DNA of 61,326 nucleotides from a virus, in the IMG/VR virus record IMGVR_UViG_3300027896_002454, positions 1-61,326 of that record; one strand, given 5' to 3'. Each line of letters opens with the position of its first letter. The first letter of the stretch is position 1. The position numbers were made by a program, and so were the translations under genes. The notes below the pieces were generated by a model, which had not been told where the DNA came from, ran no database searches, and saw nothing but the letters and a program-made list of their open reading frames with translations. Shown piece by piece: positions 6,645 through 37,661 of the stretch.

Positions 6645-6645
6645 G

Positions 6646-8276: not shown

Positions 8277-9157
8277 TCTATTTTACCTGGTTTTAGAGTG
8301 AAATTTTCGTCACTTTTAAATGCTGGCAATTCTAACAAACCTTTTGCAAAATTTTCTGCTTTCCAAGCTACTAATTCATTTATTTGTTTATTTGTTTCAA
8401 GCTTTTTTGGCAATTCAAATCTTATAACATATCCATATTTATTAAATGACTTATCTGCTGTTTGAAATGATTTATGAGAAACATCACTTGGTGTCGGATC
8501 ATCTTCATTTTCTTCTGATCCTCTAATAAAAATACTTCTATAGTGTTTTTGATTTAAATAAGCTATTTTTGGTTCTCCCCAATCCCAAAGTGGATATGCT
8601 CTAAAAAATGTTGGATTATTTTCTATCTTCTTTTTAAGTGTTTCTACTTGATCAAACACATAGCTTTTACCAAATTTTTTACCAACATCTTTCAAAAACG
8701 CTAATATATTTTCTGGAGCTTCTAGATAGTCTTTATATCGATCTCTTTTATATTGAACTGGTTTATGTTTATTAACAAATTGTTGAGTTGGTATAAAATA
8801 GAAAAATACTTCAAATTCTAAAGTATATGGTTTTGGACCCTTATTCAATACATATCCGTGTATTGTAACATCTTTCTTTATTGGTCTAACTACTGTAACA
8901 TAATCTGCTTCTTCTTTTTCTCTTTTATCAGATAATTTTTTATAAGCAGAAGTGTCTAATGGATTCTCAAATTTAGTAGTATCATCATCTTTATCAATAT
9001 AGCTTTTAATGCTTGGTTGTGGTATATCTTTTTCGTCTCCTGGGTCATATTCATCTTTTGGTAACTCTGGAGATTCTACATCATCTTCTTCGTCGTCATC
9101 TTTAACTTGTTCAAACAAATATTTCGGCAATAATTTCTTTAAACTAAATTTAGCCAT
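8273..9157 (-). CDS. Hypothetical protein with acidic N-terminal region
   Basis: I place the start at the internal ATG (reading MAKFSLKKLLP), because GAAGAG lies seven bases before it; an upstream ATG would add five residues. The protein has about 294 residues. After a basic amphipathic start comes a strongly acidic, disordered stretch (runs of D and E, residues 20-60), then a mixed alpha/beta domain rich in aromatics. A leading acidic linker followed by a compact domain suggests a binding or structural protein. No family recognised. It follows the amidase gene with a short overlap. Confidence 0.55.
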   Translation of the reverse strand: MAKFSLKKLLPKYLFEQVKDDDEEDDVESPELPKDEYDPGDEKDIPQPSIKSYIDKDDDTTKFENPLDTSAYKKLSDKREKEEADYVTVVRPIKKDVTIHGYVLNKGPKPYTLEFEVFFYFIPTQQFVNKHKPVQYKRDRYKDYLEAPENILAFLKDVGKKFGKSYVFDQVETLKKKIENNPTFFRAYPLWDWGEPKIAYLNQKHYRSIFIRGSEENEDDPTPSDVSHKSFQTADKSFNKYGYVIRFELPKKLETNKQINELVAWKAENFAKGLLELPAFKSDENFTLKPGKIE

Positions 9158-11451: not shown

Positions 11452-11817
11452 CTATTTATATTTTGTCAAAACGTCTAGTAAATTTTTATAAAAAATCATC
11501 AATTTTGCTATATATTCATCTTCTTCTAAATTTGTATCTTTAAAGATTGTTATATTATAAGCTTTAACATTAGTAGAATTTAATTCGTTAAAAGAATCTT
11601 CATGTCCACTAAAAACTAATTCTCCATAAGGATGTTTATTTTTTAATATTTCGTTCAAATCACGAACAAAATCATAAGATCTATTATCATAAGTTAATAT
11701 GATAAATCTTATATTATTAGCTTTATTATTAATTCTAGAGAGTCTAGAAAAGCCCATATTACCCCAGCTTTTTCTAACTTTGTCAATTTGTTTATTCAAT
11801 TCACTGTATTTGTTCAT
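11452..11817 (-). CDS. Hypothetical protein
   Basis: 121 residues. The middle resembles an alpha/beta core (NIRFIILTYDNRSYDFVRDL ...), with helical ends. No motif I recognise. The start overlaps the end of the following paralogue-family gene by 17 bases. Confidence 0.5.
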   Translation of the reverse strand: MNKYSELNKQIDKVRKSWGNMGFSRLSRINNKANNIRFIILTYDNRSYDFVRDLNEILKNKHPYGELVFSGHEDSFNELNSTNVKAYNITIFKDTNLEEDEYIAKLMIFYKNLLDVLTKYK

Positions 11818-12136
11818 CTTCTTTTGGAACCAATTCTGGTATTTTCATACCTTTTTCTTCTTTCCACTTTATTTCAAAAAGACTTAAAAGTTTGTCTACA
11901 TTATATTCACATTGTTCTTTTACTAAAATGAAAAATGTTTCAAAACTAGCTCTAGTAGAATTTATAGATGCTAAAATAGCAGCAATTTTCATACAAACAT
12001 TAAAATCTTCATTCCCATCAAGTTCATTTTCGGCAACTCCTTGTAAAAGAGTCCTTTTTGTGGTATATAATTCTCTTAATTGTTTTATGAAATTTTCTAA
12101 TTTTTTTAATTCAATTTCTTTTTGATTTTCTTCCAT
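11801..12136 (-). CDS. Small helical protein, paralogue of the gene at 21.5-22.0 kb
   Basis: 111 residues, helical. It shares a clear pattern with the C-terminal two thirds of the protein at 21535-22011: a DL/EL-Y..KR..L..VAE..L..NEDFN-CMKIA block, then an alternating Ala/Asn/Ser helix, then KWKEE.G.K-P.LV at the end. The two are duplicates within this genome, one soluble (this one) and one with two membrane helices added. Function unknown. It is the first gene after the strong hairpin at 12.2 kb. Confidence 0.65.
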   Translation of the reverse strand: MEENQKEIELKKLENFIKQLRELYTTKRTLLQGVAENELDGNEDFNVCMKIAAILASINSTRASFETFFILVKEQCEYNVDKLLSLFEIKWKEEKGMKIPELVPKEDEQIQ

Positions 12137-17307: not shown

Positions 17308-17864
17308 TTTTTATCCCAAATTATAATAAAATTACATTTTAATTCTTTTTGTATCTCTTTTTGTCGTTTTTTATCTCGTTTTTTCTTTCCTTCATGTCAT
17401 TTTTCATACACTTCATAAATTGTATTCGTTTCATGGCAATAACCATCAACTGTGTAACCTAACCCTTTTACTAAAAATTGTCTTTTTATCTTACAATTAT
17501 CAATTTTTTCTTGTTCATTTAACAATTGCTTTTCGTTTTTGCCTAATTGAGAATAAAAACCATCTTTCTTAATTTGTTTTACTCTTATAAGTCTATTCTT
17601 TTTGGATATTTCTGCTAATATTTTATTGTTATCTTTTGTTAAATTTTTATTCCAAATTTTTATTTCATTATTTTTATATTTTTCTTTTAATGTCTTTTTT
17701 ATCTTTGACTTAGTTTTTTCATTATGCCATTCATTACCATTTTTTAATCTTGTTTTCACAGCTTTATTAATAGAATCATTGTCTACTTTTTTTAGACCTT
17801 TATTCCACGGAATACAGCCTTTTTTAAATCTACCAGAGGCTTTATACCCTATAGCTTTCTTCAT
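17304..17864 (-). pseudogene. Vsr-like homing endonuclease, broken by in-frame TGA (copy 2)
   Basis: The frame carries NUMOD3-like repeats (IPWNKGLKK), then LGKNEKQLLNEQE, YTVDGYCHETNTIYEVYEK and, immediately after, a TGA (17397-17399). The same frame then continues with the rest of the family's C-terminus: basic helix, ELKC, NFIIIWDKN and a final TGA. In intact copies the TGA position is Ala or Lys. So this copy has lost its last 30 residues to a nonsense change, or needs TGA readthrough. The start overlaps the glycosyltransferase stop (ATGA). Confidence 0.75.
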
Positions 17865-19015
17865 TTATTTAAAACATCCTCTATATGATCTACAAAAAAT
17901 CTTGCATCAAATGAAAACAAATTTTCTGCTTGATCCCAAATTCTATCATTTCTATAATAATCATTATTTTTTAATTCATCTACTACTTTCATAAGTTCAT
18001 ATGAATCTTTAACTTTTAATGGTATATAACATTGTGGGTCATGATGTTCATTAAACGCAACTGGAACTGATCCAAACATTATAGCTTCTGCTGGTCTTGG
18101 TGTAGTAAATCCGTGTCTAAAGTAATCTCTTTTGCCAAGCAAAGGAACGCATACAGCATCTCTATAAACATCATGAAAATCTTTTGTTGTTATTCTTTTA
18201 TTGAAAACTATGCCGGGCCATCTTTGTTCTGCTTCGGCTAATTTATCTGGATAATCTCTCCAATTACCATAAAAATGAACTTTACCATGTCTTTCTTTTG
18301 CATAAGGTTTTATATATTGATCTATTACGTCATCTCTTTCATATCTTGAGCCTATATACACTAACTCTTTATCTGCAGACCATTTTTCTGTTCGAAATTG
18401 TACTAAATCTTCATATAAACAAGGAGCATTTACAGAAGTCCTATGTATATATTGATGCATTGGATCAAATGCAGTTTCAAATATTGCATCAGGACACCAA
18501 TCTTTTTCATCTTTATACGTTAATTTATGATCTAAATCCCATAAAATTATTTTTGTTCCAGCTTCTTTGTAATGATGAAGCAATCTTTCTTGTATAAATA
18601 AATCAGGTTGATATCTTAAATCAAATTTTCCATTTTCAATTGGGTATATAAATCCATCAGCTAAACAATTTCTTCCTGGTATTGGAAAACGCCATTCAAC
18701 TAATAGAATGTCTAACTCTGGCAGATTTAATCCTTCTTTTTCAAAGAAATCATATTTTTTAGTTTTACTATAAGCATTCCATCTTTTTTCTTGAGAGAAA
18801 GCTTTGAAAGCATCTTTTCCATATAGTTCAACGGCCTCGAAATCCCTATCAGGTTGTAGTTGCCACACTTCATAATTACGTTTTAGCAATTCATGTATAA
18901 GAGCGTAAGAAAAAGTTGCATTACCACAAGGTGTAGATATCTCTTCTCCGTCTTTTATTTTGTAATCACTTGTGAATCCCCAAAAGCTGTATCCCAAACG
19001 AAATCTTTTATTCAT
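17861..19015 (-). CDS. GT-B-like glycosyltransferase
   Basis: 384 residues. The C-terminal half has the look of a GT-B donor-binding domain: ELVYIGSRYERDD, HFYGNWRDYP and a final PRPAEAIMFGSVPVAF block with the acid/glycine pattern of GT4-type enzymes. It resembles the protein at 19.3-20.4 kb in layout (YIG..Y.R, YGNW, ..EA.M.G.P), so the two look like diverged copies. Substrate unknown; neighbours (Glf) suggest a surface glycan, but a DNA glucosyltransferase role for a modified-base genome is also possible. The start overlaps the tail of an endonuclease remnant. Confidence 0.7.
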   Translation of the reverse strand: MNKRFRLGYSFWGFTSDYKIKDGEEISTPCGNATFSYALIHELLKRNYEVWQLQPDRDFEAVELYGKDAFKAFSQEKRWNAYSKTKKYDFFEKEGLNLPELDILLVEWRFPIPGRNCLADGFIYPIENGKFDLRYQPDLFIQERLLHHYKEAGTKIILWDLDHKLTYKDEKDWCPDAIFETAFDPMHQYIHRTSVNAPCLYEDLVQFRTEKWSADKELVYIGSRYERDDVIDQYIKPYAKERHGKVHFYGNWRDYPDKLAEAEQRWPGIVFNKRITTKDFHDVYRDAVCVPLLGKRDYFRHGFTTPRPAEAIMFGSVPVAFNEHHDPQCYIPLKVKDSYELMKVVDELKNNDYYRNDRIWDQAENLFSFDARFFVDHIEDVLNK

Positions 19016-19190
19016 TTATGTCCCAAATTATAATAAATTTGCATTTAAGTTCTTTTTGTATCTCTTTTTGACGTTTTTTATCGTGTTTCTCATTTTTTAA
19101 GTGAGCCGACTCATATATTTCATAAATAGTATTAGTTTCTTGGCAATAACCGTCTACAACATAACCTTGATGTTTATCTGTTTCATTCAT
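19008..19190 (-). pseudogene. Remnant of Vsr-like homing endonuclease (copy 3, catalytic tail only)
   Basis: 60 codons matching only the last part of the family: YVVDGYCQETNTIYEIYESAH, a basic D-K-K-R-Q helix, and KFIIIWDINE. The N-terminal zinc and DNA-binding parts and the first catalytic region are absent. The short N-terminus (MNETDKHQG) comes straight after a promoter-like block that is repeated at 22.0 kb, which suggests a deletion joined that promoter to the tail. Its stop overlaps the ATG of the next gene (ATAAATGAATAA). Confidence 0.7.
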
Positions 19191-19212
19191 ATTAAAACCT
19201 TTCTAAATTTAT

Positions 19213-19240
19213 AGTATAATATAATACATTTTTCGTTAAA
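19213..19240 (-). promoter_or_regulatory. Sigma70-like promoter, repeated cassette
   Basis: On the minus strand TTTAAC, 16 bases, TATACT, within a block of about 55 bases that is almost identical to one at 22012-22067 and related to one at 27.9 kb. AGAAAGG follows as ribosome site before the ATG of the endonuclease remnant. It would drive the remnant and the glycosyltransferase, Glf and downstream genes. Confidence 0.6.
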
Positions 19241-19255
19241 AGTAAATATTTCGTT

Positions 19256-20395
19256 TTATTTTTTAAATACTTCATTCAACATATTTTCGAAAATTGTGTC
19301 TACTTTCAATTTTCTAAATATTTTTCTTTGTTCTTCTATCATATCTTGCTTTTGTTCAAAAGACTGTGATTTAAATTCTTCTAATTTTTTGAATACATCT
19401 TCTTTACATGAAACTATATTATCTTTTAAAATATATTCTTCGATTGTATTAATAGCCTTATCTGCCAATAACGGACAACCAACCATTACAGCTTCATGAA
19501 ATCCACCAGTTATATGACCATAATCTTCAGCCCATTTTGGTATAACTTTGCATGTTGCTAAAGCTTTATTTAATGTATCAAATCCCCAGTATTGAGCTAT
19601 AGGACCTTTTAATACATCTTTTGAATATTTTTCTGCGTATTTTTTAGTATTTAACCATTTTTCCCAATTACCATATATTTCAACTTTATATTCTGGATAT
19701 GTAGTTGCAAAATTGAAAAAGAATTCAATCATTTTTTCTCTTCTATCATAATCATGACCAATATAAACATAATCGTGAGTTCTATTATAAGCTGGAATTA
19801 ATTGCCATTCTTTAGATTCGTCATATGGTAAAGGAAAGAATAATTGATTTGGAAAATTCTTTTTCTTATATCTTGTCGCAACATATATATCTTTTGCTAT
19901 ATCAAATCCTAAAGCATGTGAAAATCTTGGTAATATCTTTTCTGTATGGTTATCATCATCTAATAATATAACTGGAATCTTATCTTTATAAGCTAACATA
20001 AGCATTAATTTATATGTAAAAATAGGAAATAAAGGATATCCAGCATTATCGATTATCAATAAATCTAATTTTGGCCATTTATATTTTTTAACATCTTTTT
20101 GTAATTTGATCCAAGATTCTTCTAAATTTATAGAACCGTCTAATGAAACCCATTGTATTTTAAAATTGCTTGGACTAAAAAATGTAGATTTAGATAAACA
20201 ATCAAATATTTTTCCTTTATGCCAAGCTCTTTTATCATTCATTACAACTATTTCATGACCCGTTCTATTAAGATAATCTAATTGTAACTCTCTATACCAA
20301 ATCGAAGATTCTATTTTTCCGTTCTTTTGAACAGTGTTGCCCTCGTCTCTAGAGAGAGCGCCATATGTATAATATCCTATGACCATTGATACCAT
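19256..20395 (-). CDS. GT-B-like glycosyltransferase
   Basis: 379 residues. The N-terminus YYTYGALSRDEGNT looks like an acceptor domain; LDLLIIDNAG and PVILLDDDNHT follow; the donor domain has YVYIGHDYDRREKM, EIYGNWEKW and GGFHEAVMVGCPLLAD. It parallels the protein at 17.9-19.0 kb. The family assignment rests on fold-level pattern, not on a named enzyme. It overlaps the PnuC-like gene by 19 bases and is followed by the repeated promoter block. Confidence 0.65.
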   Translation of the reverse strand: MVSMVIGYYTYGALSRDEGNTVQKNGKIESSIWYRELQLDYLNRTGHEIVVMNDKRAWHKGKIFDCLSKSTFFSPSNFKIQWVSLDGSINLEESWIKLQKDVKKYKWPKLDLLIIDNAGYPLFPIFTYKLMLMLAYKDKIPVILLDDDNHTEKILPRFSHALGFDIAKDIYVATRYKKKNFPNQLFFPLPYDESKEWQLIPAYNRTHDYVYIGHDYDRREKMIEFFFNFATTYPEYKVEIYGNWEKWLNTKKYAEKYSKDVLKGPIAQYWGFDTLNKALATCKVIPKWAEDYGHITGGFHEAVMVGCPLLADKAINTIEEYILKDNIVSCKEDVFKKLEEFKSQSFEQKQDMIEEQRKIFRKLKVDTIFENMLNEVFKK

Positions 20396-20586
20396 CCGAA
20401 TATGTTAGAAATTAAAAAAACTACCCATAATGTTATGCTTGCTTTTTCTTTTTTGTCCATAAAATAACTTATCCATAAAAAATTACTTAATATCCATACT
20501 GGCCAACAATATATGATTTTATAAGCATTTAAAATTATACCAATTATAGACAATCCTGTTGCTATCCAATCTATTGTTATGTCCAT
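20377..20586 (-). CDS. Small PnuC-like three-helix membrane protein
   Basis: 69 residues from an ATG preceded by AGAAAGG. Three hydrophobic segments, with CWPVWILSNFLWI in the middle and NIFGWYQW at the end, match the short PnuC/nicotinamide-riboside-transporter-like proteins seen in phages. The full PnuC has about twice as many helices, so this would have to dimerise. A role in NAD precursor uptake is inferred from family resemblance only. Confidence 0.6.
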   Translation of the reverse strand: MDITIDWIATGLSIIGIILNAYKIIYCWPVWILSNFLWISYFMDKKEKASITLWVVFLISNIFGWYQWS

Positions 20587-20587
20587 A

Positions 20588-21508
20588 TTAACCTTTCTGA
20601 TATACAAAATAATCACCTGCAAGATTAAAACCAAAATCGCTTTTATCTAATTGAGTTAAAACTATGTTTCCTTTTACTAAAACGTTTGGTTTCCATTGAT
20701 TTCCCCAAACTATAAATGATAAAGTGTCTATACCATCATCTAATCTAGCTATATAATAAGGTTTGTTATTTTTAGTTGTTTTTTGAACAACATCTACAAC
20801 TTTACCGTATACCATATCGTCTTTAGATTCCCATTCAGATACTTTTTTAAAACCATATTTATCTAATTCACTTCCAGAAAATGTAGAAATACCAGTTATA
20901 TCATAATACCATTTCTCTTTTTCTACTTCATTTGGTTCTGGAATGCTAATAGATCTATCAACTTTTTTTCCGTTAGCTAGCCAATATAACAATAGATTTC
21001 TATTATACTCTAAGCTATCTAAAGCACCTGTTTTCATTAAACAATCTACAACTTTTTTATTTACTTTGCTCCATTTTATTTTTGATGCAAAAAATTCTTC
21101 CATTGTATTGAATGGACGATTATTCTTTATTTCTTCCCAAGCTTTCTCTCCAAATGATTTTATTACTTTTAATCCAATTCTAATTTTTCCATCATCTATC
21201 TTAAAATTAAAATCTGACTTATTTATATCTAGCGGAAGTATTTCAATGCCATTTCTTTGAATTAATTTTATATAATGAGGAACTTCGTCAACACCAGCTA
21301 ATGTCAAAAGACTTGTATAATACTCTAATGGATAATAATTTTTAAGATATAATGTTTGTATAGCCAAATATGCATATGAAAAACTGTGAGAATTTGAAAC
21401 GCAGATGTCATTAGCAAAAAACCAATGATTAGGATTTTCTAATTCTAAATCATAAGTTGGATGTGTACCGGCTTCTTCTATTTCTATTATTTTTTCGTAT
21501 TTAGTCAT
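20588..21508 (-). CDS. dnaE: DNA polymerase III alpha, C-terminal part, preceded by C-intein
   Basis: The first 39 residues are a C-terminal split intein ending NHWFFANDICVSN. The C-extein begins SHSFSYAYLAIQTLYLKNYY, the conserved DnaE segment that in cellular enzymes follows GYGFNK. The remaining 267 residues hold the helix-hairpin part and an OB-fold (VYGKVVDVVQKTTKNNKPYY ... FIVWGNQW). Joined to the N-part at 23.2-25.8 kb by trans-splicing it would complete a DnaE of about 1043 residues. No beta-clamp or tau-binding motif is evident at the end. Confidence 0.92.
   Translation of the reverse strand: MTKYEKIIEIEEAGTHPTYDLELENPNHWFFANDICVSNSHSFSYAYLAIQTLYLKNYYPLEYYTSLLTLAGVDEVPHYIKLIQRNGIEILPLDINKSDFNFKIDDGKIRIGLKVIKSFGEKAWEEIKNNRPFNTMEEFFASKIKWSKVNKKVVDCLMKTGALDSLEYNRNLLLYWLANGKKVDRSISIPEPNEVEKEKWYYDITGISTFSGSELDKYGFKKVSEWESKDDMVYGKVVDVVQKTTKNNKPYYIARLDDGIDTLSFIVWGNQWKPNVLVKGNIVLTQLDKSDFGFNLAGDYFVYQKG
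21392..21508 (-). other. C-terminal half of split intein (IntC, 39 residues)
   Basis: Blocks F and G of an intein: TYDLELENPNHWFFAND then ICVSN, with terminal Asn and Ser as the first extein residue. The penultimate residue is Ser rather than the usual His; Ser at this place is also known in cyanobacterial DnaE split inteins. The fragment has its own ATG. Its length is typical of naturally split inteins. Confidence 0.9.
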
Positions 21509-21534
21509 TTTAATAATTTTTCATATACAAATTT

Positions 21535-22011
21535 TTATTTTTTTAATACTAATTTTGGAACTTTTATGCCATTTTCTTCTTTCCACTTTACATCAAACAT
21601 TTCTAAAAACACATCTGCATTATAAGAACAATTTTTTGCTTCAATAGCAAATGTTTGAAACGCTATTTTGTTAGAGTTTGCTGTTGCTAAAGTAGATGCA
21701 ATTTTCATACAAATATTAAAATCTTCATTTTCGTATAATTTATCTTCTGCGACGTTGTTTAAAAATTTTCGTTTTAAATCATACATATCTCTTAAATTTT
21801 TGATAAAAACATCTATTTTTTCTTTATTATATGCGTCTGGTCGTTGATAACTATTATTTTTACTATTATTAATGTTAATAATAATTTGTGCTATAGAATA
21901 AAATAAAAGACCAGCAAATACGCAAATCATTAAAAACATGCTATCAAATATTGCTGCAAGAAACAACAATAGTATTCCTTGTATATATACAATTGAATAG
22001 TTGTTAGTCAT
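21535..22011 (-). CDS. Two-helix membrane protein, paralogue of the 11.8-12.1 kb protein
   Basis: 158 residues. Two hydrophobic segments fill residues 7-45. The soluble part repeats the pattern of the 111-residue protein at 11.8 kb (NEDFNICMKIA, KWKEENGIK, VPKLVLKK). Function unknown. It lies between the two halves of dnaE, after the endonuclease gene and its own promoter, so it is cargo in the fracture rather than part of the intein. Confidence 0.65.
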   Translation of the reverse strand: MTNNYSIVYIQGILLLFLAAIFDSMFLMICVFAGLLFYSIAQIIININNSKNNSYQRPDAYNKEKIDVFIKNLRDMYDLKRKFLNNVAEDKLYENEDFNICMKIASTLATANSNKIAFQTFAIEAKNCSYNADVFLEMFDVKWKEENGIKVPKLVLKK

Positions 22012-22033
22012 ATTAAAACCTTTCTAAATTATT

Positions 22034-22061
22034 AGTATAATATAATACATTTTTCGTTCAA
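22034..22061 (-). promoter_or_regulatory. Sigma70-like promoter, second copy of repeated cassette
   Basis: TTGAAC, 16 bases, TATACT on the minus strand, in a block from 22012 to 22067 nearly identical to 19191-19245, followed by AGAAAGG. It should drive the membrane paralogue and the dnaE C-part, giving the second polymerase half a transcript start of its own. Confidence 0.65.
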
Positions 22062-22070
22062 AGTAAACAA

Positions 22071-22289
22071 TTATTCATATTTTTTAATATTTTCAAGAAG
22101 TTTAGTAAGATGTCTTTCATATTCGTCATACACTTTTTGATTAACTTCTTCAATTGGAATTTTTAATTGTTCAGATGCTAAAGCTACAAGCATATCTTTT
22201 ATTGCAAAAATACAAGCTAACAAATGTGCATTAATTTCATCTGGTGATTGTGTGTTAAAATTTATATTAATTTCATTTTGCGTTGACAT
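22071..22289 (-). CDS. Hypothetical small protein
   Basis: 72 residues, with a beta start (NEININFN) and two helices (LLACIFAIKDMLVALASEQ, then a charged one). No family recognised. Its ATG lies inside the end of the homing endonuclease gene (17-base overlap), GGAAACG being the likely ribosome site. It is one of two non-intein genes caught between the dnaE halves. Confidence 0.55.
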   Translation of the reverse strand: MSTQNEININFNTQSPDEINAHLLACIFAIKDMLVALASEQLKIPIEEVNQKVYDEYERHLTKLLENIKKYE

Positions 22290-23121
22290 TAGCGTTTCCT
22301 TTTATTTTGTTTATCACTTCTTCTTTATTGTTTTTGAAATCGCTTTCCCAAATTCTTATCACAATATAATTTTGATTTTTTAAATAACTATCTTTACGTT
22401 TTTGATTTTTTACATTTTTATTTTGAACTTCTGACAATCGTGTGTGGCCTCTTTTTTTCATCCATTCTGGATTTGCATGCCAATAATCACCGTCAAATTC
22501 TATACAAATATTTGGCTCTATGAATACATCTACTGTATAATATCCTATTTGTTTATTTAATTCTGCATTATTATAAAATGACTTTATGTATTCATAAAAT
22601 TCTAATTGAACTTTGCTCGTTTTACTAAACTCGCCATTTGCAATTCTTGCAGATGTTTTTGCTCTTTGAATATTTTTTGACTCTTCTGTGTGCTTATGAC
22701 CGGTATGACCATGAACTTTTCTTTTTTTAGCACTATTTGATAATCTTTTTCTTAATTCTGTTGCTTTTTCATCTCCCATTATTTGCTCTAATGTTCCTCT
22801 TTTTTTACCTTTAAGAGCTTTTCTTATGTTTTCTCCCCATTGTTCTTTATCTTTAACTTTATGAACAGGATTATTTTCTCCCATTCTATCTTCTGACATT
22901 TGTTTAAGAGTTTCATTTGTTTCTTTCGTTAATCCAGTGTTCCAAGGCTTATTTCCTTTTTTCCATGTATATGGAGGCTTTTTATCTTTCCAAGGATATG
23001 GGCTACCTTTTTCATTTGTTTTCCATTTTTCATTGTATTCTTTGATAGTTAGATTATGCTTTCTTAAATGTTTCCAAGTCAAAAACTTATACTCATTATT
23101 ACATTCTAAACATTTTGACAT
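22273..23121 (-). CDS. Vsr-like (EDxHD) homing endonuclease in the dnaE fracture
   Basis: 282 residues. The N-terminus has a MucR/ROS-like CLEC ... LRKHNLTIKEYNEKW segment; NUMOD3-like repeats follow (GENNPVHK, GHTGHKHTEESK); the C-terminal nuclease has VDVFIEPNICIEFDGDYWHAN and VIRIWESDF, the E-D-x-H signature and closing strand of the Vsr-related family. Genes of this type between split-intein halves were described as fractured genes in metagenomic phage DNA (Dassa et al. 2009). It would cut an unbroken dnaE allele and spread the arrangement. Confidence 0.85.
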   Translation of the reverse strand: MSKCLECNNEYKFLTWKHLRKHNLTIKEYNEKWKTNEKGSPYPWKDKKPPYTWKKGNKPWNTGLTKETNETLKQMSEDRMGENNPVHKVKDKEQWGENIRKALKGKKRGTLEQIMGDEKATELRKRLSNSAKKRKVHGHTGHKHTEESKNIQRAKTSARIANGEFSKTSKVQLEFYEYIKSFYNNAELNKQIGYYTVDVFIEPNICIEFDGDYWHANPEWMKKRGHTRLSEVQNKNVKNQKRKDSYLKNQNYIVIRIWESDFKNNKEEVINKIKGNANVNAK

Positions 23122-23150
23122 TTATTTCTCCATTTTAAGTAAATGTATGT

Positions 23151-23168
23151 ATATTATTAAATATAGAG
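23151..23168 (-). promoter_or_regulatory. Possible promoter ahead of the dnaE-fracture endonuclease
   Basis: The 62-base gap between the IntN stop and the endonuclease ATG reads CTATATTTAATAATATAC on the minus strand, an AT-rich -10-like stretch, with TTAAAA about 15 bases before it and GGAG as ribosome site. Similar TATATTTAT cores occur in the gaps at 12.96 kb and 16.16 kb. Weak call in such AT-rich DNA. Confidence 0.3.
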
Positions 23169-23183
23169 AAGTTTTAATAAAAG

Positions 23184-25805
23184 TCATGCTATAGTTAAAA
23201 TTTTATCATTGTTTTCAATTATATCTTTTAGCGTTTTTAACCCATTTTTCGTCATTATCTTATGATTTAATGTACATATCAATTGCTTTCCAGACTCTGT
23301 CGTCAACTTATAAACTTCTTTTTTACCATTTATATGTTTATTCTTTATAGTATTATAAACTATATCATTGTTTTTATCAACAGTTTTAATTTTTCGTCCT
23401 ATATCTTTATTAGATATCTTTGATATTTTTTTCTTTTGTCCATTTTCGAATTCGACCTCAGAGTCTCCGTGTAAACATTTGTTAAATGAATATCCACTAT
23501 ACGATTCAATCCATTCAACAATTTTATCTACTTCATCATCAGTCATATCATTGTATGTTTTGATATCTTCTTTCAATTTCTTAATATATGAAGCATATTT
23601 TTCTTGTGCTTTACCTCTATCTAATAATTTTCTACCAGTTTCTGCTTGTGCGTATGAATAACCAGTCAATTTAGAAAGGATATAAATTAAAGTTTCTTGA
23701 TATACTAATATACCATGAGTTGATTTCAAATATTCTTTAAGAATTGGATGTGGTAAATCTATTTTACTCGGGTCATTTTTCCATTCTGCATACCTATAAG
23801 CCATACCATTACCTAACGTAGCAGGTCTATCTAATGCATTGATAGCTCCAATGTCTTCCCAACAGTCTGGCTTGACCTTCTTAATCAATTTTGACACGCC
23901 GGGACTTTCAAATTGAAACACTCCAACATTTTCTGCTTTAGCAAAGTCTTCTATTAATTTTTTATCATTAACATCTATATTATCAATAGCTTCTCTTAAA
24001 TCTATTCCCTTTGTTTGTTTAACAAGAGCCATAGTATACTTAAATAATGTCAAAGTAGACAATCCTAATGCATCAATTTTTAAGATTCCTAAATCTGATA
24101 AAGCTTTATTAGTCCATGATTCTTCAAATCCAGATACAATTTCTCCATGTATTCTATTAATTGGCATATAATTCCAAATTTGTTTTGGAGTGATTACTAT
24201 ACCACCAGCATGAGTTCCAAAATGTCTAATATTATTAAGCATTCTATCTGCATAGTGAACTATATCCTTATTCTCTTCTAGCCAAGTTTCTAATCTTAAT
24301 AATTCATAATGTTTATCTTTTAAAGACTCTCTTGTGTAATCAAGAATATCTTTAACTTTCCATTTTTTAATATCTGGATTAAAATCTGGAATACTTTTGC
24401 ATACAAAATCAACTTCTCCCTTTGATCTATTCAAAACTCTAACTAAATCTCTAAGAACTCCCTTTATTTGATATGTTCCAAATGTTATAACTTTAGTGAC
24501 ATGTTCTCTACCATATTTGTTTATAACATATTCACTTAATTCTTCTCTTCTTTCAGACTCGATATCAAAATCTATATCAGGATTTGCTACTCTTTCAGGA
24601 TTTAAAAATCTTTCAAAATATAAATCATTTACAATTGGGTCAATATCTGTAATACCAATCAAATATGATATCAAACTTCCGGCAGCAGAACCTCTACCAG
24701 TTCCTACTAAAATACCGTTCTTTTTTGCATAATCAATAATATCCCAAATTACTAAAATGTAATCAGTATAACCTTTGCTTACAAGAATATCATATTCGAA
24801 TTTTATTCTTTTTAGATAAATGTTTATTTTATTTTTATCTATTTTACCACTATCTATCTTTTTCTTTAAACCTTCTTTAGTAATTCTTAATATAAATTCT
24901 TCAGGTTTTTCTTCAGTTCCAGTAATATATATTGGAAAATTATTAACTCCAGTTTCTAATTCATAGTTGCACTTATCATTTATTTCTAAAGTATTATTTA
25001 AACAATCATCTATAAATGTTTCATGATAATCATACCCAAATTGAAGATTAAGCTTTTGAAAATCTTCTCTTGTTTGAAAGAAAAGATTTCTTGCATTAAG
25101 TTTCCAAGATTTTTCATCATCAGGATCTGTATTTCTTTTGATAGCGATAACTAAATCTTGAACTCTATCATCACCTCTTTGAGCATAATGGATATCACCA
25201 GTTAAAATTATTTTTGTCTTAGACTTAGTTGCCCAATCTATAAGTTTTCTATTTAATATTTTTTGATCAGATAATTCGTTTAATTGAATTTCTACATAAA
25301 AATCATCATTAAAATTTTCTTTATATTGATATAATAATTGTATTGCTTCTTCATCTTTGTCTTTTCCAAACAACTGATTAATTTCAGATATAGCACAAGT
25401 TGAAGTAACTATAAGACCTTTTCTATTCTTATATAATTCACTTCTTCTAACTAATGGTTTTCTATAAAAAGTCTTAGTAAATGAATCATAATTTAACTTA
25501 TTTGCATTAACAAAACCATCTTTATTTTTAACTAATACAATTTGATGAGATGTCGGAACTTTTAATTCATATGAATCATCAAACATAAAATCATTATATA
25601 AATAAAATTCACAACCAATTATAGGTTTCACACCATTTTTCTTCATAGTAGTGCAGAAATTATATACATTAGACATGTTGCCATGATCTGTAATACACAT
25701 AGCTTTCATGTCATTTTTCTTTGCTAATTCTGCATACTCTTCAATATTACCAGGTGAATCTAATGTAGATGCTGATGTGTGAGCGTGACAATGAACAAAA
25801 GACAT
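23184..25805 (-). CDS. dnaE: DNA polymerase III alpha, N-terminal part, ending in N-intein
   Basis: Residues 1-776 are DnaE: PHP domain with HCHAHTS (5-11) and DHGN, polymerase palm acids D410/D412 (PDIDFD) and D578 (LKIDALGL), and a fingers/little-finger part that stops exactly at SYSGYSFNK. The last 97 residues are an N-terminal split intein. The PHP metal residues look intact, so it may proofread or hydrolyse pyrophosphate. Use of a C-family polymerase beside T4-like helicase, SSB and UvsX is unusual. The 43 residues closest to the fracture match the SHS-type C-part at 20.6-21.5 kb. Confidence 0.94.
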   Translation of the reverse strand: MSFVHCHAHTSASTLDSPGNIEEYAELAKKNDMKAMCITDHGNMSNVYNFCTTMKKNGVKPIIGCEFYLYNDFMFDDSYELKVPTSHQIVLVKNKDGFVNANKLNYDSFTKTFYRKPLVRRSELYKNRKGLIVTSTCAISEINQLFGKDKDEEAIQLLYQYKENFNDDFYVEIQLNELSDQKILNRKLIDWATKSKTKIILTGDIHYAQRGDDRVQDLVIAIKRNTDPDDEKSWKLNARNLFFQTREDFQKLNLQFGYDYHETFIDDCLNNTLEINDKCNYELETGVNNFPIYITGTEEKPEEFILRITKEGLKKKIDSGKIDKNKINIYLKRIKFEYDILVSKGYTDYILVIWDIIDYAKKNGILVGTGRGSAAGSLISYLIGITDIDPIVNDLYFERFLNPERVANPDIDFDIESERREELSEYVINKYGREHVTKVITFGTYQIKGVLRDLVRVLNRSKGEVDFVCKSIPDFNPDIKKWKVKDILDYTRESLKDKHYELLRLETWLEENKDIVHYADRMLNNIRHFGTHAGGIVITPKQIWNYMPINRIHGEIVSGFEESWTNKALSDLGILKIDALGLSTLTLFKYTMALVKQTKGIDLREAIDNIDVNDKKLIEDFAKAENVGVFQFESPGVSKLIKKVKPDCWEDIGAINALDRPATLGNGMAYRYAEWKNDPSKIDLPHPILKEYLKSTHGILVYQETLIYILSKLTGYSYAQAETGRKLLDRGKAQEKYASYIKKLKEDIKTYNDMTDDEVDKIVEWIESYSGYSFNKCLHGDSEVEFENGQKKKISKISNKDIGRKIKTVDKNNDIVYNTIKNKHINGKKEVYKLTTESGKQLICTLNHKIMTKNGLKTLKDIIENNDKILTIA
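23187..23477 (-). other. N-terminal half of split intein (IntN, 97 residues)
   Basis: Block A starts with Cys (CLHGDSEVEFENGQKKKISK), and block B has the TxxH motif in ICTLNHKIMT. No endonuclease domain is present; the gene simply stops after KILTIA. Cys as nucleophile, with Ser as +1 in the partner, gives the standard splicing chemistry. Confidence 0.9.
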
Positions 25806-31498: not shown

Positions 31499-32859
31499 CT
31501 TGAACTTTCCTTCATTTCTCTATATCGTTGTCTCATGTGATCTTCTGTTGCTTTTTTATCTGAAAATTCTATCATTGGATTTATATCTTCTGGTTCTAAT
31601 ATGTCTATCTTTGCTGTAGTTGTATTCATTATAACTGGTAATACTAAACCGTCTTCACCAGCTCTATTTTTAGCTACATATATCTTGCCTTTGTTTAATC
31701 GTTTATCTTCATATCTTCTAGATAATGAAATTATAACATCTGCAACTTGAGCTTTTGCAAAAGATTCTGCTATACTTGATAAAACTACAACTTCTTCTTC
31801 CATTCCACCTCTATTAGTTTGAGATGCAGTTATAACAGGAATCTTTAACTCTCCACCCAAAGCTCTAAGATCTTCATAAACACTTTCTAATTCATATCTT
31901 TTTTGTTCATAATTCTTTCTAGAATTCATTAAATCTGCATAATCAACAATAACAATATCTGGATATATTCCATAATGATTTAACTTATTTATATGATTTC
32001 TAATTGTTACTACATTAGCTGTTTTAGTTGGGTATTCTTTAATTATAAGTTTACCATTTGTTTTTTCACTATGCTCTAATAATCTTGCTCTAACTAATTC
32101 TTTATTTGCAGTTATTTGTTGTATCGGAATACCAGATACTATAGCATCATATCTACCACCAACTTGATGTTCATATAATTCAAACGTATAATGTAATGCT
32201 GTCTTACCCTGATCAATAGCTGCTTTTCCAGCATAACACAATAACCATGATTTTCCAATTCCAGTACCAGCTAATATCACAGACAGCTCACCTCTACCCC
32301 AACCTCCATTAAGAACTTTGTCTAACACTTTCCAACCAGTACTAATAGTAGAACGATTTGCCATTAAAATTCTTTTATCAAAATGTTCGAAATAATTATG
32401 ACCAATATCATAATTTTCTCCAGCATTTAAAGCATCTTTAATAGTTTTATATATTTCTTCAAATCTACCTTGTTGTAAAAAATCAACAGATTCTAACAAG
32501 GCTTTTTTCATTTTTTGATTTCTACAAAATTCTAAAGCTTTATCTTTTATATATGTTAAATCACTTATTGGATTCTTTTTTATTTCAGAAAGTATTAAAG
32601 AAGATGATTCTCTTAATAAATGATCTTGTATTAAATTAACACTTACCTCTAATATATCTTCAGATGGTACAATTTTATATTTTTCATAATAATCAAGAAT
32701 TACTTTATACAAATTTGAGTGAGATTCTTGATCAAAATATTCTGATAACATTATACCATAAGTTTTTTCGAAAAACTGTTGATCTATAATAATAGCTTGT
32801 AAAACTTTTGTTTGAAAATTTGTTCCAAAAATACTAAAATTATCTCTTTTTTGAGGCAT
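31495..32859 (-). CDS. Replicative DNA helicase (DnaB/gp41-like)
   Basis: 454 residues. A helical N-terminal domain (1-150) precedes the RecA-like core: Walker A GTGIGKS (198-204), HYTFELYEHQVGGR, Walker B DIVIVDYADL near 290, and PVITASQTNRGG (sensor/H3). It unwinds DNA as a hexamer ahead of the fork and recruits the primase at 2.6-3.6 kb. Nearby recombination and exonuclease genes make this the replication core. Confidence 0.9.
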   Translation of the reverse strand: MPQKRDNFSIFGTNFQTKVLQAIIIDQQFFEKTYGIMLSEYFDQESHSNLYKVILDYYEKYKIVPSEDILEVSVNLIQDHLLRESSSLILSEIKKNPISDLTYIKDKALEFCRNQKMKKALLESVDFLQQGRFEEIYKTIKDALNAGENYDIGHNYFEHFDKRILMANRSTISTGWKVLDKVLNGGWGRGELSVILAGTGIGKSWLLCYAGKAAIDQGKTALHYTFELYEHQVGGRYDAIVSGIPIQQITANKELVRARLLEHSEKTNGKLIIKEYPTKTANVVTIRNHINKLNHYGIYPDIVIVDYADLMNSRKNYEQKRYELESVYEDLRALGGELKIPVITASQTNRGGMEEEVVVLSSIAESFAKAQVADVIISLSRRYEDKRLNKGKIYVAKNRAGEDGLVLPVIMNTTTAKIDILEPEDINPMIEFSDKKATEDHMRQRYREMKESSR

Positions 32860-32861
32860 AT

Positions 32862-33910
32862 TTATGCTAGGTCAGTTTCGTTTTTGATTTGATTAAATTG
32901 CCAATTTAAACGCAAGAACAATCTGTGCCAATCGTCCATCCGTTTTATTTGTGAATGTAAGCTATCTTTTAGGAATAAAATCATTAATTGTGAAGTAGAT
33001 AGCATAGGTTTTTGATTTATTAAAAGTGATTTAATTTTATCAACTGATTGTGAATTTATATTATGATTTCTTAATTGAACTAAATCGAAATTTCTTTCAA
33101 GAGTCTTTTTCGATTCTTCGGTGAGGAAAACTTGATATTTTTCTTCATCTTTGTGTTGCTCAGCGTAGTTTGTTAAATCTTCTAATGTATAAATATTATC
33201 TTCATTTAGAAAAGGAAACATTTTCACTAAAGTTTTTTCTCCGAGTCCTTTTTTTAATTTTGGGATTCCATCACTTGCATCACCAATTGCAGATTTAAGT
33301 AATGCATGATTTTTTGGATAAACAAAAGTTCTTTTTAATACTTCTTCTTTTGTTATGATCTCTTTTTTTACTGGTCTGTAAACTCTTGTTTTTTCATCTA
33401 TTAATTGATAATAATCTTTATCTGAACTAACAATAATTTTTTCATCATCTTTAAATAAATTGTTCGAAACATATGCTATAACATCATCTGCTTCTAAATT
33501 TTCAATTTCTAATTGATAAACTGGTAATATCGTAAAGTATTCTTTCGTTTTCAATAATTGAGTAACAAAATTTTGTTTTTCTTCTTCTGGAGTAGAAAAT
33601 TCAAATACTTTAGATAAAGAACCTCGTGTTTTTCTTCCCTCTTTATATTCTGCGAATACTTCTCTTCTCCGTTTTCCTGAATTTTTTCCTTCCCAGCACC
33701 AAATAACTACATTTGGATTAAATATTTCAACTAAATGTTTTATCGTTTGTAATACGCCAAATACTCCACCAAAAAATTCTCCATTGTCATTTACGACTCC
33801 AACAACAATAAAATTACGAATAAACTGATTTATAGACCGTCGATCAATAAAATCCTACGAACAGGTTTTATTGCGACGGTACTCTCCTTATGCTCGACTG
33901 CGTTATTCAT
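32862..33910 (-). CDS. 5'-3' flap exonuclease / RNase H (FEN-like), frame broken near the start
   Basis: The long frame reads INQFIRNFIVVG, NVVIWCWEGKNSGKRRRE (PIN/FEN metal and Lys/Arg block), YQLEIENLEADDVIAY, IIVSSDKDYYQL, and a helix-3-turn motif (IGDASDGIPKLKKGLGEKT). It removes RNA primers and flaps. But that frame has no ATG, GTG or TTG at the right place. The conserved beginning RRILLIDGL is in a second frame starting at an ATG that overlaps the upstream endonuclease stop. Removing two bases (33831-33832) joins them as IDGLNQFIRNF, which is what the family has. Either a frameshift, a sequencing error, or an unusual expression mechanism. Confidence 0.85.
33836..33880 (-). promoter_or_regulatory. 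Long hairpin at the flap exonuclease 5' end
   Basis: On the minus strand ACCGTCG-CAATAAAA-CCT, loop GTTCGT, AGG-(A)-TTTTATTG-(AT)-CGACGGT: 18 pairs with two small bulges, richer in GC than its surroundings. The 3' arm is the coding sequence for ILLIDG. AAGGAGAG lies just before the 5' arm. It would hide or pause translation at the place where the frame shifts by two bases. Confidence 0.6.
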
Positions 33911-34583
33911 TTATTTCCTTTTTAAATATCTTGTTTAGCAAAGCTTTATTTTTATTTATTATTTCGTCTATATCTCTACTATCTAATAATATTCTATAAA
34001 GTGTAAAATTATTTTTTGCTGCTATTTGTTCTTTTAATTCATCTACAATTTTAACTCCAGCTCGAGAATGCCAATACTCTCCATCACATTCTATAAGTGT
34101 GTTATTATACTTTCCATCATAATATTTATCATTTAAACAAAATTGTCTTTCTATCTTAACATTAAAAATGTTTTCTAATTTATTTAATAAATTGTCTTCT
34201 AACTTTGAAGATATTTTAAAATTTATTTTTCCATTACGCATTCTTTTTATTGCAGATTCACTCATTTTCTTTTTAGATTCTTCAGAATAAACTTGTAATT
34301 TTCTCTTCTCTCTCATCTTTTGCTTAGTTTCTTCACTATGTTTTTTACCATACATAGCATTATTTTTTCCACTAATCTTATCCTTTATCAAAAATAAAGC
34401 TTTTTTAACAGATTCACTATCTTTTCTTTTGTGCTCGTCTGTTAGAGTTATTCCAGTTTTCGTTTTCTTATTAACATAAGATATTACGCAACTTCTTGAG
34501 TGAAATCTTGTTCCTCTCTTTATTTGAGCTTCTGATAATTTTTCGCTGCAATATTCACAAAACTTTATAATTTGAGTTTCCAC
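33903..34583 (-). CDS. Vsr-like (EDxHD) homing endonuclease beside flap exonuclease
   Basis: 226 residues from a GTG with AGAGGAAG before it (start VETQIIKFCEYC). N-terminal zinc motif (CEYC ... FHSRSC), NUMOD3-like GKNNAMYGKKHSEET, then the nuclease: IERQFCLNDKYYDGKYNN and LIECDGEYWHSRAG, the E-D-x-H signature shared with the dnaE-fracture enzyme. It is inserted between a small gene and the flap exonuclease, whose start is disturbed. A longer start would run deep into the upstream gene without a ribosome site. Confidence 0.75.
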   Translation of the reverse strand: METQIIKFCEYCSEKLSEAQIKRGTRFHSRSCVISYVNKKTKTGITLTDEHKRKDSESVKKALFLIKDKISGKNNAMYGKKHSEETKQKMREKRKLQVYSEESKKKMSESAIKRMRNGKINFKISSKLEDNLLNKLENIFNVKIERQFCLNDKYYDGKYNNTLIECDGEYWHSRAGVKIVDELKEQIAAKNNFTLYRILLDSRDIDEIINKNKALLNKIFKKEINE

Positions 34584-34885
34584 TCTTCTTCCTCTTTTAA
34601 TCCATATTGCGCTTTTAATTTTACTATAGCTACTTTCCACATATCTGTAGTTATAGCAGTTGTAGAAAATAATCCTATTAAATCAGAAAGTTTTGGTCCA
34701 CCGATGTCTATCATTAATTTATCACATTGTTCTAGTGTGCTTTTTGATCCAATATGAACAATTTCATAAAATTTTTCTCTACATCGCTCATGCACTTCAT
34801 AGTGTTCAATGCTATGTTCAAAATAATATTGCAAATATTCATGGTTTCTAAACATCCTTTTGTTACATACGAAACATTTTTTCAT
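34565..34885 (-). CDS. Hypothetical protein with CxxC zinc knuckle
   Basis: 106 residues. It starts MKKCFVCNKRMFRNHEYLQ with later HYEVHERCREKF, so C4, C7 with His/Cys partners may hold zinc. The rest is helical. No family recognised. It begins directly after the DnaQ-like gene stop, and its last 19 bases overlap the endonuclease start. Confidence 0.55.
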   Translation of the reverse strand: MKKCFVCNKRMFRNHEYLQYYFEHSIEHYEVHERCREKFYEIVHIGSKSTLEQCDKLMIDIGGPKLSDLIGLFSTTAITTDMWKVAIVKLKAQYGLKEEEEWKLKL

Positions 34886-35437
34886 TTAATTATTCCATTT
34901 TATTTGAATTTTCTTTATAAGTTTAAAATATACTTCTTTCAAAAGTCTTGCATCTTCTAATGCTCCATGCTTTTGACTTCTAAGATTAGACATATTTAAT
35001 TTATCTAAACATTCGTCTAAACTAACTCTATCAAAATATTTAGCATCTCTAAACAAGTTTGCTAAAGTAACTGTATCTAAAAAATATTTAGGTTGATCTC
35101 TAACTCCGACTCCATGAGTAGATAAAAATGCTGACAAAAATGATCTATCAAAAGCTGCATTATGAGCATATATATTATCAGCATTTTTTAATATTCTATT
35201 TACTTCTAAAGCTATCTTATAAGGATTTCCAGCTTTGCTACCCCATTTACCGACATGATATCCATTAACTCTAGCAGCTTCTGGATTGATTCCTCTTGTA
35301 GCTTCCATGAAAAAATTATGTTCTTCTGTAATTTTTTCTGTTAAACTATCTGCTATTGCTATTCCTATTTCAATTACTTCGTCTCGTAAAAAATTAAGAC
35401 CTGTAGTCTCTATATCTACAAATGCTATCTTTGACAT
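34886..35437 (-). CDS. DnaQ/DEDD-family 3'-5' exonuclease
   Basis: 183 residues, the size of a stand-alone epsilon-type exonuclease. ExoI: FVDIETTGL (D4, E6 region); ExoII: YAHNAAFDRSFL; ExoIII: HGALEDARLLKEVY with the His-Asp pair of DEDDh enzymes. It is a plausible proofreading partner for the PHP-type DnaE made from the split genes, or a T4 DexA-like exonuclease. Confidence 0.88.
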   Translation of the reverse strand: MSKIAFVDIETTGLNFLRDEVIEIGIAIADSLTEKITEEHNFFMEATRGINPEAARVNGYHVGKWGSKAGNPYKIALEVNRILKNADNIYAHNAAFDRSFLSAFLSTHGVGVRDQPKYFLDTVTLANLFRDAKYFDRVSLDECLDKLNMSNLRSQKHGALEDARLLKEVYFKLIKKIQIKWNN

Positions 35438-35445
35438 ATTATTCC

Positions 35446-35577
35446 TTATGATGGCGTTAATCTAAATGATTCTAATTCTACTAACAATCTTTTAAGTGTT
35501 TCTGCAGGACTTTCATTGTTCTTCTTTTCTTCAGATAAAAGTTCTACTAATTCATTATAGTTTGCTTTATATTTCAT
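35446..35577 (-). CDS. Small helical protein (43 residues)
   Basis: An ATG overlapping the uvsX stop as ATGA opens a 43-codon frame: a charged helical peptide (YNELVELLSEEKKN, then AETLKRLLVELESFRL). It ends eight bases before the exonuclease gene. Function unknown; tight coupling to uvsX supports it being real. Confidence 0.55.
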   Translation of the reverse strand: MKYKANYNELVELLSEEKKNNESPAETLKRLLVELESFRLTPS

Positions 35578-36767
35578 ATTTCTACCTCATTGTCTTCCTT
35601 TAGTTTAGCATTTCCTGATTCATCTACATCTACTTTTGCTTCATCAAAATTAAGTATATTTTTTTCCATAACTTGTTTTCTTAAAAATTCTTCTAATCCT
35701 GGAGTATTTATAACATTCTCTCTCCATTGAGTAGTCCTAAATTTAAGAGTTTGACCATTGAACTCTAATTCATAAGATTGAGTAGTTGGTTTTCTAATTA
35801 CTTCTAAATCAACTAACGTGTTGAAATTACTTTCTAAATCATCGACTCCTTTATTAAAATAAACAGAAAAATGACAATCTCTACCAGGAGAAGAAACTCT
35901 ATTTTTTGCTATCTTTGCCTTTACTCCAGCACCAATAGTATTATCTTTATTATCTTTTATCACTCCACTTTTAAGTAATTGAATTCTAACAGATGCATGA
36001 AATTTAGGAGCATATCCACCAGGAGTTGTAGTTGGATCACCGAACATTACTCCAAATTTTGATCTAATTTGATTAGTGAATAATAAAAGAACTCTTTTCT
36101 TTCCAATTAATGGCATAAGTTTTCTTAAACCAAGAGATAACATTCTTGCTTTAACTGCCATCGTGTGTTCATCATATCCTTTTTCTATTTCTTCTTTAGT
36201 CGGAGTTGATGCAATAGAGTCCCAAACAATAGTTATAAGCTTGTCTGAATTTAATTCTCTAACTTTATTGATTATAGATTCTATTCCTTCAAACACTCCC
36301 TCAACAGAACCAACTTGAAGATAGACTAAGTTGTTTAATCCAGCATTTCTAGCTTCTTGTCCTATCTTCATACCCATTCTTCTCAAAAATTCTATAGATG
36401 TTCCGTTTTCTTCGTCAAATAATATAGGAACTCCACCTAACTTTTGAGTGTTAATTAAAACATGATTTGCTAACAAACTTTTACCAGTTTGATTATCTCC
36501 ATATATTTCAACAAGGCGGCCAACAGGAAGGCCGCCATTGTCTAATCCTAACTTTTTATATAAATCATTTGAAATAATGGAATCTAAAACTGTGCATCCA
36601 GTAGAAACTAATTCATCTAGATCTGTAGGAGTTGCTTCTTCTCCTAATGCATAAGCTATCTGTCCATATTTTTTATTTAAATCTTCTATTAAAGCTGAAG
36701 AGATAGCATTATTGTCTAGTGATGCCAGTAAATCATTGGCATCAGCCATTATTTTTTTTCTTGCCAT
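35574..36767 (-). CDS. uvsX: RecA/UvsX-like recombinase
   Basis: 397 residues. Walker A GDNQTGKS (90-97), PILFDEENG, Walker B ITIVWDSIAS, and LLLFTNQIRSKFG with TTTPGG (L2-like) are in RecA order. The acidic C-terminus (VDVDESGN, EDNEVEI) is as in UvsX/RecA. It pairs strands for recombination-dependent replication and works with the gp32-like SSB encoded directly upstream and the Mre11-Rad50 fusion. Confidence 0.93.
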   Translation of the reverse strand: MARKKIMADANDLLASLDNNAISSALIEDLNKKYGQIAYALGEEATPTDLDELVSTGCTVLDSIISNDLYKKLGLDNGGLPVGRLVEIYGDNQTGKSLLANHVLINTQKLGGVPILFDEENGTSIEFLRRMGMKIGQEARNAGLNNLVYLQVGSVEGVFEGIESIINKVRELNSDKLITIVWDSIASTPTKEEIEKGYDEHTMAVKARMLSLGLRKLMPLIGKKRVLLLFTNQIRSKFGVMFGDPTTTPGGYAPKFHASVRIQLLKSGVIKDNKDNTIGAGVKAKIAKNRVSSPGRDCHFSVYFNKGVDDLESNFNTLVDLEVIRKPTTQSYELEFNGQTLKFRTTQWRENVINTPGLEEFLRKQVMEKNILNFDEAKVDVDESGNAKLKEDNEVEI

Positions 36768-36772
36768 AGTAT

Positions 36773-37573
36773 TTAGCTCTTCTTAAATATATCGTCGAAT
36801 TCTTTATCTAAATCTGTAACTACTTCAGTTTTATCAGAAATAGTTTCTTTACTTGGAGCTATTACAACACCAACATCACCAGCTTCTTTTTGCTCTTCAG
36901 TAGGAGGATTTAAATAATTATTAAGAACTTGCTCTAATTCAGTATATGATTGTTCTGGATATACTTCAAATATATTTGGAACTTCTTTCAAAATCTTAAC
37001 AATCATAGCTTTATCTTGATGTAATGGACTGCTATTCCTCTTTGGAAATACTTCAGTTTTTCCATACAAAAGTTTATCACTTTTTCCAGTAAATTTAACA
37101 ACTATATCAGTTCCATCTATTGGATGAGTTATATCTCCGTACTCTGGATTTGTAAAGAAATTTAACAATGTTTCATAAACTTCTTTTCCAACTCCCCAAA
37201 ATTTAACACCTTCATCTTCTTTACCTCTAACTAGAATAGGGATATATACTCTTGTTTTAGCTGCAATTTTCTTAAATGAATTAAAATCTTCTTCAGTTTT
37301 CTTTGCTCTAAGTTTTTGAGCAAAATTACATATAGGACATTCTTTTGCAAAATTAGCTGCGCATAATGCTGTTCTATTACCAACATCATAATGAAACAAT
37401 AATTCATTAAAAGGATCTTTTGCATGTTTATAAGGAACAATTCTAACTGTAGATTCACCAACTGGTGCTTTCCAAGTCATGCTTTGACGTTTATTTGAAG
37501 AATTAAGTTGTTGAAGTTTCTTTTTGATTGAATCTAAATCGACGGGCGTAAATGTTGTTGACTGTGTAGACAT
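36773..37573 (-). CDS. Single-stranded DNA-binding protein (gp32-like)
   Basis: 266 residues with the T4 gp32 plan: basic N-terminus for cooperativity (LDSIKKKLQQLNSSNKR), OB-fold core with a zinc knuckle (LCAANFAKECPICNFA, three Cys), and an acidic C-tail (VTDLDKEFDDIFKKS) for partner binding. It covers ssDNA at the fork. It begins the replication block after a gap with a promoter-like sequence. Confidence 0.88.
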   Translation of the reverse strand: MSTQSTTFTPVDLDSIKKKLQQLNSSNKRQSMTWKAPVGESTVRIVPYKHAKDPFNELLFHYDVGNRTALCAANFAKECPICNFAQKLRAKKTEEDFNSFKKIAAKTRVYIPILVRGKEDEGVKFWGVGKEVYETLLNFFTNPEYGDITHPIDGTDIVVKFTGKSDKLLYGKTEVFPKRNSSPLHQDKAMIVKILKEVPNIFEVYPEQSYTELEQVLNNYLNPPTEEQKEAGDVGVVIAPSKETISDKTEVVTDLDKEFDDIFKKS

Positions 37574-37604
37574 GATATTTCTTCCTTGTTAGTTTTTATT
37601 TCTA

Positions 37605-37650
37605 TAGTTATTAAATTATGTTTAAATATAATAAATCTTTATTAATAAGT
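37605..37650 (-). promoter_or_regulatory. Probable promoter ahead of ssb-uvsX
   Basis: The 88-base gap between gmhA-like and ssb genes reads TTTACTTATTAATAAAGATTTATTATATTTAAACAT on the minus strand, following the pattern of the promoter cassette at 19.2 and 22.0 kb (TTTACTTTTAACGAAAAATGTATTATATTATACT). The exact -10 is unclear. AAGGAAG serves as ribosome site. Confidence 0.4.
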
Positions 37651-37661
37651 AAATAATTATT

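Follow-up and report, generated by a model that had tools for sequence, protein, structure and literature searches.

The virus record IMGVR_UViG_3300027896_002454, a linear metagenome contig of 61,326 bp that may be incomplete and is analysed here over its full length (the window), encodes the polymerase DnaE in two separate genes, each of which carries one half of an intein at the break. The whole analysis was computed from assemblies. All features of the locus lie on the minus strand. The gene dnaE-N (23184-25805) codes for 873 amino acids (aa), made up of DnaE residues 1-776 with the PHP, polymerase and finger domains (N-extein, 23478..25805), which end in YSFNK, and a 97-aa N-intein (23187..23477; TIGR01445) with Cys1 and the block B motif CTLNH, followed by the stop codon at 23184-23186. 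The gene dnaE-C (20588-21508) codes for 306 aa, namely a 39-aa C-intein (21392..21508; TIGR01443) terminating in NHWFFANDICVSN (VSN) and the last 267 aa of DnaE (C-extein, 20588..21391), which start with SHSFSYAY. Between the two genes lie a predicted homing endonuclease gene of the EDxHD, Vsr-like type (282 aa, 22273..23121), an open reading frame (ORF) of 72 aa (22071..22289), a predicted intergenic promoter (TTGAAC-16-TATACT) with a ribosome-binding site (22012..22070) and, 3' of these, a gene for a 158-aa protein with a hydrophobic N-terminus (21535..22011). A previous reading made from the letters only (the sequence-only reading) had described both intein halves with their FNK and SHSFSYAY flanks, and these were borne out at the coordinates given; the endonuclease, the 72-residue gene and a membrane-type protein with its own predicted promoter are likewise all present where it had placed them.

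According to Pfam and PHROGs, the N-half contains the PHP, polymerase and finger domains and the C-half an HHH domain. On phrog_405, the N-half matches up to position 793 and the C-half from 793, that is, the two cover adjacent stretches, and the PHP (HCHAHTS), palm (PDIDFDIE) and LKIDALGL motifs are undamaged. The break point is FNK|SHS, which lies inside a conserved motif and away from any domain border. The predicted spliced DnaE would have 1043 aa and a mass of 120.9 kDa, a figure that replaces the approximately 118 kDa given earlier. The linear and possibly incomplete record holds one dnaE polymerase domain; neither a second such domain nor a complete dnaE elsewhere was seen in its 61,326 bp. 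Since an Rfam search of the window returned no match, no known group I intron accounts for the break.

Both intein halves score above their NCBIfam family cut-offs, the N-intein against TIGR01445 (intein_Nterm) at 3e-9 and the C-intein against TIGR01443. Joined at the split, they find the gp41-1 split intein as their top match in the PDB (E 1e-10), with Npu DnaE and further inteins ranking next, and they give a near gap-free alignment with continuous mini-inteins that occupy the same DnaE site in unbroken genes of three other viral contigs (L109, L023 and L064). Canonical split inteins are broken at the endonuclease insertion site into an N-part of about 100 aa and a C-part of about 35-40 aa (PMC11923092), a definition that the window intein, with 97 and 39 aa and a break at the usual endonuclease position, fits. 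The window intein has the full set of splicing residues (Cys1, TxxH, the block F Asp/His, the terminal Asn and Ser+1), which is broadly conserved over about 20 sister loci. One might propose that the polymerase halves act as separate, unspliced subunits and that the intein pieces are relics. A second, intein-less dnaE break is found near phrog_405 position 617|630, for example in G016, G020 and G001, so that an unspliced split DnaE seems possible. However, relics would hardly be expected to keep every splicing residue here and, broadly, across the sisters, nor does the cut mid-motif offer a domain border at which two subunits could part, and we regard this proposal as very unlikely. The intact motifs point instead to halves that would splice in trans.

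The 282-aa protein encoded in the gap shows weak matches to MTES_1575, DUF559 and Vsr. A profile built from five of its relatives finds I-Bth0305I (PDB 3R3P), the prototype of the EDxHD family, with an E-value of 2.6e-5. In an AlphaFold2 model the catalytic part is confident (pLDDT mostly 82-90), and a Foldseek search with this model places 3R3P at the top, with a probability of 1.00, a TM-score of 0.74 on the target and a modest E-value of 6.5e-3. Judged by the model and the profile match, the protein is a predicted Vsr-like, EDxHD-type nuclease related to I-Bth0305I, with which it shares a Vsr-like catalytic domain. The gene for I-Bth0305I itself resides in a recA group I intron rather than in a split intein. 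The candidate catalytic residues D198 and H215 both occur in the window protein, the former being invariant in the family and the latter kept by most members. The N-terminus contains a ROS/MUCR-like zinc-finger segment. The idea that the endonuclease of locus L014, in which the Asp/His positions are changed, is a dead enzyme was dropped, as 3R3P varies near there too. A tblastn search with the 282-aa protein against 50,697 phage records gave no match. Further free-standing Vsr/DUF559-like endonuclease genes or fragments, which are related to each other, are found in the window at 6646-7236, 17397-17864, 19008-19190, 33903-34640 and 40957-41610.

How widespread the broken site is was addressed in IMG/VR, where DNA patterns for the N-junction and the C-junction returned 56 and 13 stretches, respectively; in these, the FNK|SH site carries continuous mini-inteins, continuous larger inteins or fractured genes. 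The endonuclease family was followed with a profile scan, from which the best 80 relatives among the matches listed were taken. Of the 22 nearest relatives among these matches, 21 (all except L269) lie between halves of a dnaE broken at this site; none of the weaker ones was seen in such a position. The endonuclease lineage thus appears bound to this site, which is the usual sign of homing specificity. Over 19 distinct loci, the endonuclease, intein and polymerase diverge in a correlated manner (Mantel rho 0.66-0.73, p ~0.0005), which indicates that the module is old and cohesive. What is new here is that the FNK|SH site of dnaE is a widespread and old fracture hot spot. The same order of N-half, endonuclease and C-half recurs in independent contigs, which also bears on whether the window locus could be an assembly error or a decaying pseudogene. 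Such a concern is prompted by the metagenomic origin of the assembly and its linear ends, yet with this recurrence, five intact ORFs, intact active-site motifs and a fairly uniform GC and GC3 content, we consider it highly improbable. In bacterial and archaeal genomes the site is also occupied, nearly always by a continuous intein where the far side is readable, and a split dnaE is present in one of 48 such dnaE loci among the matches listed. In this locus (L206, 3044-3583, on a contig of a GTDB genome), the break falls at the same position and the gap between the halves measures only about 0.1 kb and holds no endonuclease, which may reflect a frameshift or endonuclease loss.

Continuous inteins at this DnaE site are also found in the Rhodococcus phages Weasels2, Grayson and Dorin and in the human-gut phage MT835601, and other gut phages have the site without an intein. 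In a tree of 40 DnaE flanks, the split or continuous state requires 11 changes, at least seven of which are forced by well-supported branches; in the intein tree there are eight such changes, three of them forced. The window polymerase groups with the continuous-intein relatives L023 and L109 (97/89). This scattered distribution indicates that fracturing, re-sealing or replacement, in one direction or the other, occurred repeatedly.

The 72-aa ORF, the promoter and the 158-aa gene, to which we refer as cargo, add 0.75 kb between the endonuclease gene and dnaE-C, and the distance from the N- to the C-junction is 2.10 kb in the window versus 1.27-1.50 kb in 18 sister loci. By inspection, the first ~40 residues of the 158-aa protein are hydrophobic. 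Its C-terminal part has a paralog in the window, a 111-aa ORF at 11801-12136 (53% identity over 95 aa, 70% at the DNA level), and the 80-bp stretch that includes the cargo promoter and its ribosome-binding site shares 89% identity with positions 19187-19266, which precede a 60-aa Vsr-like fragment; no further equally close copy of the cargo gene or promoter stretch was found in the window. The promoter sequence, searched with one wobble base permitted, is absent from all 250 loci searched, PADLOC gave no defence match for the cargo, and the insert is not marked as foreign by its GC or GC3 content. The sequence-only reading had offered two origins for these genes, either that the endonuclease was followed by further insertion or that a larger unit moved. 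In the latter case the endonuclease and both extra genes would have entered dnaE as one mobile unit, and indeed the first 17 nt of the 72-aa ORF lie within the 3' end of the endonuclease gene, an arrangement reminiscent of translational coupling. In most fractured loci examined closely, it is the start of the C-half that overlaps the end of the inserted gene; in the window, the 72-aa ORF takes this coupled position. The larger unit nevertheless does not fit, because the 18 sister modules of the same endonuclease lineage lack the cargo and because both the cargo gene and its promoter recur elsewhere in this genome. A tblastn search of the 50,697 phage records with the two cargo proteins gave no homolog, and the 158-aa protein has none among 14 related or fractured records. 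We therefore hold the larger unit to be unlikely, and the first of the two origins is the one that fits: given the paralog, the promoter copy and the cargo-free sisters, the cargo appears to have been inserted later, from local phage DNA, and to lie outside the mobile unit.

Taken as a whole, the locus is best explained as a mini-intein-carrying dnaE that was fractured by an EDxHD endonuclease gene, is trans-spliced and later received local cargo, an explanation to which we assign a probability of about 0.82. In this account, the phage dnaE would already have carried a mini-intein at FNK|SH, and the arrival of the endonuclease gene at the place where inteins usually carry their endonuclease would have turned it into a fractured gene. 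The separate N- and C-half proteins would associate via their intein halves and splice in trans to give an intact 1043-aa polymerase. The endonuclease presumably cuts uninterrupted alleles at the dnaE site, upon which repair would copy the module in. In a later step, 0.75 kb comprising the 72-aa ORF, a phage promoter and the 158-aa gene, duplicated from the same genome, would have been inserted between the endonuclease and the C-half, which would be tolerated because the spliced protein does not see the gap, and the cargo promoter could then also drive dnaE-C. Several points weigh against this explanation. Trans-splicing is deduced from intact motifs, and cleavage and homing by the endonuclease from its association with the site. 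The order in which the continuous intein comes first is unpolarised, and the continuous relatives could be re-sealed forms. IMG/VR scans with the N-half, C-half or endonuclease as single proteins returned no relatives, in agreement with the lack of close kin of this phage; as no relative with more than 50% identity was found, the comparison lacks an allele from this lineage that is either empty or free of cargo. For the 72-aa ORF, no relatives and no source were found.

In the fractured genes described by Dassa and colleagues in 2009 (NAR 37:2560; cited in PMC7090010), which reportedly cover eight enzyme types, the gene halves end in the parts of a split intein and are reportedly separated by a free-standing gene for a Vsr-like endonuclease. 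As in those cases, a phage gene for a DNA-synthesis enzyme is broken here by complementary intein halves with an endonuclease between them; the differences are that the window has dnaE, broken at FNK|SH, and two genes and a promoter in the gap. On these sequence features, the window locus is a member of the fractured-gene class with predicted trans-splicing, and the earlier proposal of a fractured dnaE with a split intein and a Vsr-like homing endonuclease is supported by sequence, structure and comparison. A literature search, which did not extend to the 2009 work, found no publication that describes a fractured dnaE in a phage. In cyanobacteria, the split DnaE intein (Ssp, Npu) is inserted at AEY|CFNK, is not known to come with an endonuclease and has its halves far apart. 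In both systems DnaE is broken at the endonuclease position into about 100 and 36-39 aa, but the window site FNK|SHS lies four residues downstream of AEY|CFNK, and an identity of the two inteins was rejected on account of this distance. The mini-inteins of Weasels2, Grayson, Dorin and MT835601 share the insertion site and the intein family with the window, whereas theirs form one continuous reading frame without an endonuclease. The polymerase context, thought earlier to be possibly new, is not, as there are PolB precedents (PMC6892783, PMC12707363) and as many IMG/VR contigs carry a dnaE that is fractured at this site. Split PolB inteins are known from phages (PMC12707363), and in phage MIJ3 PolB is fractured by a split intein with an HNH endonuclease (PMC6892783). 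MIJ3 thus resembles the window in having a DNA polymerase fractured by a split intein plus endonuclease, and differs in the polymerase family (B), the endonuclease type (HNH) and, as far as the parts of the report consulted go, in that no cargo is described (PMC6892783).

A number of variants of the broken dnaE were observed at other loci. In L049 (8041-9078, minus strand), a Vsr-like endonuclease forms an in-frame fusion with the N-intein of a fractured dnaE, a possible intermediate form. In L245 (G014 31500-39500), dnaE is distributed over three genes (544-6679) and interrupted by two different split inteins, both of which come with a Vsr-like endonuclease of their own. In L100 and L101 (G001), dnaE contains one continuous intein of the HNH type in addition to two split inteins; if the contig ends join, the G001 FNK|SH halves would be separated by about 5 kb that hold many small genes. 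In L099 (G002), the dnaE halves carry complementary intein pieces on opposite strands, 3.2 kb apart (2329-3579, plus; 6772-8604, minus), and by eye the genes behind the C-half look like those of L055, whose halves flank an endonuclease. A search for a second G002-like dispersed locus returned the G002 contig itself, so that the dispersed G002 case stands on one assembly; in general, the G001 and G002 arrangements come from single or few contigs. Inserts of other fractured dnaE genes contain genes of the DNA-modification type, namely a Mom gene (L055, 10058-11395; E 2e-26), an N6/N4 DNA methylase next to a nuclease-like ORF (L067, 4917-6697) and, by inspection, a broken MT-A70-like frame (L026, 10260-10835). 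A DnaQ-like exonuclease gene lies, by eye, between the pieces at a second, intein-less dnaE break in L247, L249, L258 and L100.

Cyanobacterial dnaE is the classic case of a naturally split gene with a trans-splicing intein, a type of gene whose origin is still open. Phages show a whole series at one DnaE site, from the continuous mini-intein through the L049 fusion, the N-half-endonuclease-C-half order (~20 loci) and the addition of cargo (the window) to halves that lie apart (G001, G002), which makes the path to split genes testable. We tentatively speculate, at somewhat below even odds, that the split-intein gap serves as a safe harbour in which an essential polymerase gene can gather cargo, because trans-splicing takes away the cost of distance, and that the halves can then drift or invert. 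Examples would be the window cargo, the Mom- and DNA-methylase-type genes of L055 and L067, and the separated or inverted halves of G001 and G002. If true, this path would lead to a dispersed split dnaE like the cyanobacterial one, four residues off. For work on splicing, the loci also provide numerous new split inteins from a single site, together with the three-piece polymerase with two split inteins (G014).

Elsewhere in the window, an ORF directly behind dnaE-C (20377-20634) has a match to PnuC-type NMN transporters that is confined to their C-terminal half, and a long series of sugar-nucleotide and related genes (asparagine-synthase-like, C-methyltransferase, epimerases) extends over 41921-61052. 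The gene organisation is strongly strand-biased, with 86 of the 87 non-overlapping ORFs in the window on one strand.

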